Assembly (NCBI GenBank): GCA_903875345.1
Contig: CAIQVS010000332.1
Coordinates: 1-50,792 of the forward strand
DNA length: 50,792 nucleotides
Source: an uncultured Pseudomonadota bacterium
GTDB taxonomy: Bacteria > Pseudomonadota > Alphaproteobacteria > UBA9219
Reading direction: 5' to 3'
Shown here: one piece after another, positions 22,111-43,176 of the stretch
Position numbering within the stretch: position 1 is the stretch's first letter
How the letters are laid out: each line of letters begins with the position of its first letter
Program-made: the position numbers and the translations under genes
The notes under the pieces: generated by a model
The model's database searches: none
What the model was told of the DNA's origin: nothing
The model's input: the letters and a program-made list of their open reading frames with translations, nothing else

Positions 22111-22126
22111 TCAGCATTCAGGGGTC
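22092..22126 (-). repeat. Heptamer array overlapping the cobT start codon
   Basis: Minus strand: GACCCCT GAATGCT GAATGTC GAACCCT GAAACTC; contains cobT ATG (22110-22108). Confidence 0.85.
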
Positions 22127-22165
22127 AAAGGCTAATAACACTATACGGGAGCAGTATAACGTCCT

Positions 22166-22200
22166 ACTCCCTGAATGCCGAATCCTGAATACCGAACGCT
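22166..22200 (+). repeat. Heptamer array ending at the phoH stop codon, inverted relative to the cobT array
   Basis: ACTCCCT GAATGCC GAATCCT GAATACC GAACGCT; the last unit overlaps the phoH stop (CTA on +, 22199-22201). Confidence 0.85.
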
Positions 22201-39393: not shown

Positions 39394-40533
39394 TCAATCC
39401 ACGCTTCCCGTCCTTGATATCCGCATGTCACGATGGATCGACAGGCTGAGAAGAACTCCACAGCCGACAAGGAGCGTCATCATCGCTGTACCGCCATAGG
39501 AGACCAAGGGCAGAGGGATACCGACGACCGGAATGGTACCCGTCACCATAGCCACGTTAACAAAGACATAGAGGAAGAAGGTGACAGTCAACCCAAACGC
39601 CGCCAGCCGCCCGAACTGGCTACGACTTGTCAGAGCAATCATAAAGCCATAGGCGATCAGGAGAAAATACAGCAGAAGCAGAAAAATTGCGCCGAAAAGT
39701 CCAAACTCCTCCGCCAAAACGACGAAAATGAAATCGGTGTGCTTTTCCGGCAGGAACTGGAGCTGGCTTTGCGTTCCTTGCCCAAAGCCTTTGCCGAACA
39801 ATCCTCCAGAGCCAAGCGCAATCTTGGATTGCAGGATATTATAGCCGTGCCCCAGAGGATCGGCAGCGGGATTAAGGAACGTCAGCAACCGCGCCTTTTG
39901 ATAATCATGCAGATGATGCCAAGCAACCGGCAGAATTGCCGCCGCCAGCCCTATAACAATCAGAAATTTCCACCAGCGCACCCCTCCGGCGAAAAACACC
40001 GCCGCGCTCGCCAGCATCAGCAGCGTCGCCGTTCCAAGATTGGGCTGCAGCAGCACGAGCCCAACCGGAACCAGAACCATGGAGACAGGAGCGACCAGCT
40101 TGATGGGTTGGCCGATGTCTTCCAGAGATAAACCATGGAAATATTTAGCCAACGATAGGACGAGGGCAATTTTCATCAGCTCGGATGGTTGCAAGACAAA
40201 AAAACCGAGATTGATCCAGCGCTGCGCCCCCATGCCGATATGCCCCATCACCTCGACGACGACGAGCAGAAACAGCATGATCCCATAGAACGGATAGGCA
40301 ATCCTCCACCAGACACGAATATCAACCACAGCAATCACCAGCATCAGGACGATTCCGATGACGAAGCGGGCCAACTGCGCCCCCGCCCAAGGCTGCCAAT
40401 GCTTGCCCCCGGCGGAATAAAGCAGCGCGATCCCGATCAGCCCGATCGTGACGATCAACGCGACAAGCCCCCAGTTCATCAGACGCAACTTGTCGCCGAG
40501 TCCAAGATGATAAGCGGAGGAGAGACGGGGCAT
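39394..40533 (-). CDS. rodA: Peptidoglycan polymerase RodA (SEDS family)
   Basis: GAQRWINLGFFVLQPSELMKIALVLSLAKYFH, EKHTDFIFVVLAEEFGLFG, GIPLPLVSYGGTAMM. Confidence 0.92.
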   Translation of the reverse strand: MPRLSSAYHLGLGDKLRLMNWGLVALIVTIGLIGIALLYSAGGKHWQPWAGAQLARFVIGIVLMLVIAVVDIRVWWRIAYPFYGIMLFLLVVVEVMGHIGMGAQRWINLGFFVLQPSELMKIALVLSLAKYFHGLSLEDIGQPIKLVAPVSMVLVPVGLVLLQPNLGTATLLMLASAAVFFAGGVRWWKFLIVIGLAAAILPVAWHHLHDYQKARLLTFLNPAADPLGHGYNILQSKIALGSGGLFGKGFGQGTQSQLQFLPEKHTDFIFVVLAEEFGLFGAIFLLLLYFLLIAYGFMIALTSRSQFGRLAAFGLTVTFFLYVFVNVAMVTGTIPVVGIPLPLVSYGGTAMMTLLVGCGVLLSLSIHRDMRISRTGSVD

Positions 40534-40567
40534 GGAACGGCTAGAAGTTAGGGGTTGGGGATTGGAG
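40534..40567 (-). repeat. C-rich heptamer array abutting the rodA start codon
   Basis: Minus strand: CTCC AATCCCC AACCCCT AACTTCT AGCCGTT CC then ATG (40533). Confidence 0.75.
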
Positions 40568-40620
40568 AAAAAGGTTGCGATAGATTGTAACGTATCGCAA
40601 GACATCATGCTATCAACTTG

Positions 40621-40682
40621 AATTTCCAGCCTCTAACCTCTAACCTCCAGCTCTAACCTCCAACCCCTAACCCCCGACTCCC
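40621..40682 (+). repeat. C-rich heptamer array abutting the purQ start codon
   Basis: AATTTCC AGCCTCT AACCTCT AACCTCC AGCTCT AACCTCC AACCCCT AACCCCC GACTCCC then ATG (40683). Confidence 0.92.
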
Positions 40683-41348
40683 ATGCGCGCTGCCATTATC
40701 GTTTTTCCGGGTTCCAACCGCGAGCATGACGCCGCTCGCGCGCTTAGCCGTGCAATGGGCAAGGAACCGGATTTTGTTTGGCATAATGACAGCGAAATGC
40801 CAAAAACCGACTTGATCCTGCTGCCCGGCGGTTTTTCTTACGGCGATTATCTGCGCACCGGCGCGATGGCGGCGCATTCGCCGATCATGCGCGAGGTCAT
40901 CGACCGCGCCAAAAAAGGCGTGCGCGTCTGGGGCATTTGCAACGGCTTCCAAATTTTGTGTGAAACCGGCTTGCTCCCCGGCATCCTGTTGCGCAACGCC
41001 AGCCTGAAATTCGTCTGCCGCACCGTGACGTTGAGCGTCGAACAAACGGACAGCGATTTCACGCGTCTGTGCCAGCGCGGGCAGGAATTGCGCGTTCCGG
41101 TTGCGCATGGCGACGGAAATTATTTCGCCTCCGCCGACATGCTAAAGGAACTTGAGGATTACGGCCAGATCGCTTTCCGTTATCGTGATAACCCCAATGG
41201 CTCGATCCGAGACATCGCCGGAGTCTTCAACAAAACCCGCAACGTCCTCGGGCACATGCCGCATCCCGAAGACGCCATCGAACCCCTACACGGCAGCGCG
41301 GACGGCGCAGTTTTGTTTGAGAGTATTGCCAAGGCGTTGGCGGCGTAA
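40683..41348 (+). CDS. purQ: Phosphoribosylformylglycinamidine synthase I (glutaminase subunit)
   Basis: AAIIVFPGSNREHDAARAL, VWGICNGFQILCETGLLPG, GHMPHPE. Confidence 0.95.
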   Translation: MRAAIIVFPGSNREHDAARALSRAMGKEPDFVWHNDSEMPKTDLILLPGGFSYGDYLRTGAMAAHSPIMREVIDRAKKGVRVWGICNGFQILCETGLLPGILLRNASLKFVCRTVTLSVEQTDSDFTRLCQRGQELRVPVAHGDGNYFASADMLKELEDYGQIAFRYRDNPNGSIRDIAGVFNKTRNVLGHMPHPEDAIEPLHGSADGAVLFESIAKALAA

Positions 41349-42395: not shown

Positions 42396-43001
42396 ATGAA
42401 ACAGCCGATGCTTTACATGATCGCCGGACCCAACGGGGCGGGAAAAACCACCGCCGCAATGGAATTGCTGCCTCGTTTTCTGTCAATCCACGAATTCGTC
42501 AATGCCGATGAGATTGCGCGCGGTCTTAATCCCCTCGATCCGTCCGGACAGAATGTTGCGGCGGGACGGCTTATGTTAAATCGCATCGATGACTTAATTG
42601 TTTCTGGTAAAAATTTCGCGTTTGAGACGACCGGCGCAAGCCGCGCGTTTGCCGAAAAAATGAAGAACGCCAAGAATGCGGGTTATCGGCTGGGGCTTCT
42701 TTATCTGTGGTTGCCCAGCGCCGAGTTCGCCAAGCATCGTGTGCGTTTGCGCGTCAGACAGGGTGGGCATTCGATTCCCGATCATGACATTGAACGACGT
42801 TTTGGACGCAGCCTATGCAATCTGATACATCTCTATCTGCCCCTGGTTGATGAGGCGAATATATATGACAGCTCATCATCAGGCATGAATACCTACAAGC
42901 TGATTGCCGGAAAAATTGGAGCAAACTGGGCTGTAATCCAATCTGCTCTTTGGACGACCATCGAACAAGCAGCCGGGGAGTCTGCCCTTGACAAACATTA
43001 G
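42396..43001 (+). CDS. Zeta-toxin-like / AAA P-loop kinase
   Basis: MLYMIAGPNGAGKTTAAMELLP (Walker A), FVNADEIARGLNP, FAFETTGASRAF, YLWLPSAEFAKHRVRLRVRQGGHSIPDHDIERRFGRSL. Confidence 0.85.
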   Translation: MKQPMLYMIAGPNGAGKTTAAMELLPRFLSIHEFVNADEIARGLNPLDPSGQNVAAGRLMLNRIDDLIVSGKNFAFETTGASRAFAEKMKNAKNAGYRLGLLYLWLPSAEFAKHRVRLRVRQGGHSIPDHDIERRFGRSLCNLIHLYLPLVDEANIYDSSSSGMNTYKLIAGKIGANWAVIQSALWTTIEQAAGESALDKH

Positions 43002-43176
43002 CGATGTTATTTTACCACAGCTTGCCAAAGGCGTTCACGCGGGTACTCTGGCCGCAATCAAGAAAGCGCGGATGACCGGAACCAATTTAGTCATCTGGCG
43101 CGACGGACAAACCGTCGAGATTACGCCGGATGAAGCCGAAGCGATGTTGTTGAAAGAGGAAAAAGACAGCCCATGA
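42988..43176 (+). CDS. Small protein partner of the Zeta-like kinase (candidate antitoxin)
   Basis: 62 aa, TTG start with GGGGAG upstream; overlaps the kinase stop and the purL start: MTNISDVILPQLAKGVHAGTLAAIKKARMTGTNLVIWRDGQTVEITPDEAEAMLLKEEKDSP. Confidence 0.65.
   Translation: MTNISDVILPQLAKGVHAGTLAAIKKARMTGTNLVIWRDGQTVEITPDEAEAMLLKEEKDSP

Follow-up and report, generated by a model that had tools for sequence, protein, structure and literature searches.

What builds and maintains paired arrays of C-rich heptanucleotides that run, on opposite strands, up to the start codons of the divergent genes rodA and purQ in an uncultured alphaproteobacterium? We addressed this question in a 50,792-nt stretch of DNA (the window), in the draft genome to which it belongs, and in relatives from the same order. 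The gene names given in an earlier note on this DNA hold: purQ (40683..41348, plus strand) matches the NF002957 equivalog with 320 bits (cut-off 212) and rodA (39394..40533, minus strand) matches the TIGR02210 equivalog with 413 bits (cut-off 337). An in-frame ATG at 40608 would lengthen rodA through its array; the RodA N-termini of relatives start at the position of 40533, not 40608.

The paired arrays are real, and the earlier note had described them exactly to the base. The purQ-side array (40621..40682, plus strand) is 62 nt long and consists of nine C-rich units with the consensus AACCYCY, eight of 7 nt and one of 6 nt. Read from the sequence these are, in order, AATTTCC AGCCTCT AACCTCT AACCTCC AGCTCT AACCTCC AACCCCT AACCCCC GACTCCC, and the next base, 40683, begins the purQ ATG. 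This array is also picked up by the tandem repeat search TRF and by its lag-7 score. Mirrored to it, the rodA-side array (40534..40563, minus strand) reads AATCCCC AACCCCT AACTTCT AGCCGTTCC and abuts the rodA ATG at 40533; it is found by reading and by pattern and PWM scans, and degenerate units extend it to ~40576. Read on the G-rich strand, the unit is RGRGGTT. The arrays contain a perfect 12-bp inverted repeat, as reported and as recovered by inverted-arm alignment, the left arm being GTTAGGGGTTGG (40547..40558) and the right arm CCAACCCCTAAC (40660..40671), both given on the plus strand. Between the arrays lies a single-copy core (40564..40620); only the arrays match elsewhere in the genome or the order. 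The palindrome TTGCGATA-N10-TATCGCAA at 40575-40600, in the middle of the core, is a possible operator or promoter feature.

With a two-unit pattern at up to 3 mismatches, the window contains nine matches compared to 0.46 expected from dinucleotide shuffles (0 of 100 shuffles had as many), and eight of the nine fall in the rodA-purQ spacer. The lag-7 score of this spacer is 18.0, against 2-4.6 at all other lags from 4 to 12 (0/1000 shuffles as high). In the window's genome the arms match only moderately: the inverted-arm score of this spacer was reached by 9 of 1000 shuffles.

Neither the rodA nor the purQ leader contains a Shine-Dalgarno sequence, as had been claimed. The two arrays would be transcribed 5' leaders, and if so the core 40564..40620 must hold both divergent promoters; a sigma-70 scan found no consensus promoter. 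The leader RNA of the window array is predicted to be unstructured, and the leader matched no curated family in Rfam (best hit a sub-threshold plant miRNA, 21.7 vs 75 bits). An RNA hairpin between the arrays was considered and dropped: with promoters in the core both leader RNAs would be C-rich and could not pair, so the inverted repeat, which has a DNA fold z of −2.3, matters at the DNA level if at all. Across the window's genome a Shine-Dalgarno sequence is absent from 13 of 13 array-abutted leaders and present in 33% of sampled genes, and array leaders have a median MFE of −1.9 vs −8.9 kcal/mol (p = 4e-8). Weak folding and the lack of a Shine-Dalgarno sequence follow in part from the C-rich composition, and the leader effect may be a by-product.

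Arrays occur at other loci of this genome, one of the questions that the earlier note had raised. The assembly is a draft from a metagenome (3.12 Mb, 454 contigs, 8% estimated contamination), and genome-wide statements rest on pattern searches together with sampled stretches. Its nearest PurQ relatives are from uncultured Alphaproteobacteria known from metagenomes. The pattern AACCYCYRRCYYCY followed by ATG within 24 nt has 20 matches, which fall at about 15 places, while the reversed pattern has none. Downstream of these arrays are ORFs for hemJ, ispA, an RND pump, ubiE, fpg, recO, rodA and purQ, and further for an iron-permease-like gene, gatC, a glycosyltransferase and others; all names except those of PurQ and RodA are our interpretation of the sequences. 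Two of the ~15 places adjoin unconvincing genes (C200, with 3 codons, and C337, unclear). The start of fpg we take to be certain, the mature enzyme beginning at Pro2. Arrays are also found after stop codons, for example those of the gene preceding relA and of an amidase-like gene. The genes beside arrays are functionally unrelated, and the cores vary in length and sequence between loci.

The arrays of the window's genome are more degenerate than those of its relatives and lie mostly below the motif-free threshold, but they are visible in PWM and pattern scans. Reversing the pattern was uninformative as a control for the PWM scan, since tandem arrays are still matched, in another phase, by a reversed heptad; we relied instead on shuffles and on the ATG-anchored pattern. 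Neither the shuffles, a comparison that the earlier note had asked for, nor the reversed ATG-anchored pattern reproduces the arrays. At first the last AACCCCC unit seemed phase-locked at 14-15 nt ahead of the ATG; this was discarded, as the loci spread over 12-21 nt. The 21-nt form AACCYCYAACCYCYAACCYCY occurred in 0 of 189 other genomes drawn from the class, a draw that did not include the array-bearing relative G028. At two loci, L014 1599 (relA) and L009 1687 (gmk), heptad-like sequence runs on into the predicted N-termini (MSNPDPQSPPVPPKPP... and MNPASTSNPEPPIP...), an appearance that would fit arrays spreading into the genes or a true start further downstream.

Between 80 and 330 kb was sampled per genome, from the window's genome and from five relatives; we predicted genes with a small home-made codon-pair model and analyzed spacers of 40-700 nt. 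Exact 8-mers repeat in excess at lags 7, 14 and 21, above all in G028 and G012. Recurrence at lag 7 was seen in 15/153 spacers of G028 (vs 1.3), whose sampled contigs, like those of G013, were partly picked for holding arrays, and in 6/58 spacers of G012 (vs 0.2). A motif-free score at period 7 identified 11/153, 11/58, 2/41, 2/53 and 1/59 spacers of the relatives, versus ~0 in shuffles. At periods 5, 6 and 8-11 it identified 0-1 spacers; one G028 match that appears at every period is merely a stretch of N. The intergenic spacers of the sampled relatives are thus enriched for period 7, and the arrays lie at the spacer ends.

The arrays also share a polarity. In 27 of 30 arrays of the relatives, 15 at start edges and 12 at stop edges, it is the C-rich, G-poor strand that runs into the nearer gene. 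The remaining three have the opposite polarity, one of them due to a gene call that overlaps the array. The same polarity is seen in the window's genome and, in the few examples available, at stop-stop spacers as well. Stop codons are overlapped by arrays in G028, where arrays ahead of starts mostly leave room for a Shine-Dalgarno sequence; in the window's genome arrays extend to the ATG. Inverted-repeat matches are more frequent between the two edges of one spacer than between edges taken from different spacers, with REP-type palindromes explaining some of the hits in G028, G013 and G007. Array motifs differ between genomes and between spacers of a single genome.

Arrays are present at orthologous loci, a second point on which the earlier note had sought a comparison. 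At purQ, inverted arms occur in five of ~30 orthologues from the order, the window and four relatives, and the arms match each other within each of the five spacers. Their motifs are AACCYCY in the window, CTAGCCC-type in G022, CTAATTC/CCTAATC in G018 (lag 7 itself not significant), TCACACT/CTACACT in G012, and CACTACT/CATTACT in G007, which represents another family and has another upstream gene. In the set of purQ and recO leaders (L180-L189, L300-L321), nine genomes share a conserved block, CTTTYATT...AAAATGCCCTAARTTG...TTTCCAC, ~40-60 nt upstream of purQ. The right arm of G018 ends just before this block, which places the array there outside the presumed purQ transcript. Arrays at recO occur in the window's genome, G013 and G007 and are absent in most relatives, and the fpg array is found in the window's genome only. 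Most orthologous spacers are without arrays, a sign of rapid turnover. Orthologous conservation was rejected as proof of selection since arrays recur at close to the rate given by their base frequency per spacer. In many genomes a TGCTAGACT-like element stands no more than ~15 nt from the recO ATG, which suggests that recO leaders are very short.

We give an even chance to the reading that the rodA-purQ arrays form a single inverted pair of gene-edge heptamer repeats, grown by slippage and tolerated in dispensable spacer up to its functional edges, and, as part of the same reading and with equal confidence, that they represent a long simple-sequence repeat spread over many spacers of the genome and the order. 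Units would be gained and lost by 7-nt replication slippage, and strand switching in the inverted repeat would copy one arm onto the other and so keep the two matched. Arrays would fill dispensable spacer until they meet a functional boundary, whether a stop codon, a Shine-Dalgarno sequence, a promoter block or a start codon that has no Shine-Dalgarno sequence. That such boundaries are respected is indicated by the G028 arrays, which overlap the stop codon and leave the Shine-Dalgarno sequence free, and by the G018 array, which ends before the purQ block. As G-poor, unstructured leaders lacking a Shine-Dalgarno sequence and open to ribosomes, the arrays would be tolerated and perhaps mildly favoured, and a dedicated regulator would not be required. 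At stop-stop spacers the polarity is neither predicted by slippage nor accounted for by selection on leaders.

Gene-edge heptamers are already known from Xanthomonas, Nostoc and Beggiatoa, and the arrays described here belong with them as further members of a poorly understood kind. MacGregor 2015 (PMC4679880) reported TAACTGA direct repeats in marine Beggiatoaceae that lie in one orientation and end 1 nt before start codons without a recognizable RBS, with mostly start placement, hardly any inverted pairs, and related heptamers rare; their function was left open. Our arrays likewise end within a few nt of RBS-less start codons. They differ in that their unit, AACCYCY, is C-rich whereas TAACTGA is not, and in that stop edges and inverted pairs are common. 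This precedent bears on a selected translational element, as proposed for the TAACTGA repeats, in which the C-rich leader would take over from the Shine-Dalgarno sequence the recruitment of 30S subunits, via ribosomal protein S1 or a cold-shock-type RNA-binding protein (PMC4679880). Arrays that reach the ATG of many housekeeping genes, and leaders that are unstructured with 0 of 13 bearing a Shine-Dalgarno sequence, fit such a role, but arrays of equal polarity at stop codons do not, nor do the G028 arrays that stop short of a normal Shine-Dalgarno sequence, the G018 array upstream of the presumed purQ promoter, or a motif that changes freely between genomes. We consider a translational element unlikely, if still worth serious attention.

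Rehm et al. 2015 (PMC4692102) described GGGAATC and GGGGA(C/T)T heptamers in Xanthomonas and Nostoc and left their function open. These repeats are non-coding, adjoin genes of unrelated function, overlap with stop codons and form convergent inverted pairs; whichever way the gene faces, their G-strand points out of it at the start edge as well as at the stop edge (PMC4692102). The arrays studied here agree in being tandem 7-nt units in non-coding DNA beside unrelated genes, in a G-rich strand that points away from the nearer gene at both kinds of edge (in the relatives and in the window's genome), and in inverted pairs within one spacer and overlap with stop codons. The unit RGRGGTT is neither GGGAATC nor GGGGA(C/T)T, so they are of the same kind but not of the same repeat family, and unlike those repeats their motif varies between relatives and between spacers of one genome. 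Xanthomonas repeats are under-represented between divergent genes, where several of our placements lie, and their placement is 83% shared between Xcc and Xac (PMC4692102), whereas orthologous placement in this order is mostly unshared; Xcc and Xac are far closer relatives than the order members compared here.

For the Xanthomonas and Nostoc repeats a G-quadruplex or i-motif has been proposed that would affect transcription or replication through the DNA itself. The G-rich strand here has the same polarity (PMC4692102), and some G028 arrays fit G3+N1-7. There is no canonical four-tract G-quadruplex in either window array or in the ubiE and fpg arrays, and arrays of relatives such as TCACACT and CACTACT have hardly any G-tracts, which leaves this explanation very unlikely.

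The published precedents limit the claim of the earlier note that such an array is unusual in a bacterial 5' leader (PMC4679880, PMC4692102); that claim is partly right, and the presence of arrays at stop codons shows that they are not specific to leaders. Cyanobacterial STRR (short tandemly repeated repetitive) sequences are C/G-rich heptamers in non-coding DNA. The earlier note's choice of these as the nearest analogue was apt; our arrays resemble them in those properties and differ in lineage and unit. GGGGA(C/T)T has been reported in Nostoc and heptanucleotides in Calothrix (PMC4692102).

An origin as the ends of a MITE/REPIN-like mobile element, or as a scar left by recombination, would account for an inverted pair around a core, and G028 arrays do flank REP-like palindromic cores. 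The window core, however, is not multi-copy, with no second copy in the genome or the order, cores differ in length and sequence between loci, and arrays end at gene boundaries on both sides; we regard this origin as slightly less probable still. In L039 (G028 contig 10, 1934-7600) successive spacers have REP-like palindromic cores, which contain GCGTCAT...GCAATGACG-type sequence and are surrounded by clean TTAGGGG/AACCCCT arrays.

The earlier note had called the arrays telomere-like. The term stands for a formal resemblance in polarity and nothing beyond it; a telomere-like mechanism is not supported, and the interpretation in that note is partly supported overall. Such end healing, in which the 3' ends of a broken spacer are extended with G-rich 7-nt units and rejoined to give G-left/C-right arrays whatever the gene orientation, predicts polarity, inverted pairing and abutment on functional edges without selection, but we know of no enzyme for it, unique cores survive between the arms, and arms share locus-specific motifs that independent end extension does not predict, making it highly improbable. 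A protein-binding (iteron-like) array for a regulator, suggested by repeated units beside many starts and by the palindrome in the core, is just as improbable given that the motif varies between spacers and genomes, that arrays also stand at stop codons, and that the adjoining genes are unrelated in function.

Earlier accounts treated heptamers separately and each by its own motif, those of Xanthomonas and Nostoc as G-quadruplexes and those of Beggiatoaceae as translational signals. Here, in a single alphaproteobacterial order, period, polarity, inverted pairing and edge placement are kept while the motif changes, which points away from motif-specific functions and toward a general process. 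A bolder conclusion, which we rate as a long shot, is that a motif-independent process working in 7-nt steps both builds inverted arrays at the borders of genes and renews them, across many bacterial lineages, with the G-rich strand always reading out of the gene. Spacer edges would then be marked by period and polarity rather than by sequence, and an end-extension or templated mechanism, not plain slippage, would set the polarity. Both earlier studies cite the suggestion that heptamers dominate owing to the length of DNA held by the polymerase (PMC4692102, PMC4679880). With period and polarity kept across changing motifs, the cause of heptamer dominance and of polarity becomes testable by genome comparison.

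Two other features of the window were observed. Between purQ/cysK and purL, at 42396-43176, lie a zeta-toxin-like P-loop protein, as read by eye, and a small ORF. The spacer at 22111-22198 likewise carries inverted copies of a repeat at its two ends, here a different one (TTCAGCATTCAGGGG ... CCCTGAATGCCGAATCCTGAATACCGAA); the left copy directly adjoins a start and the right copy a stop, and TRF reports a match at 22170-22196.
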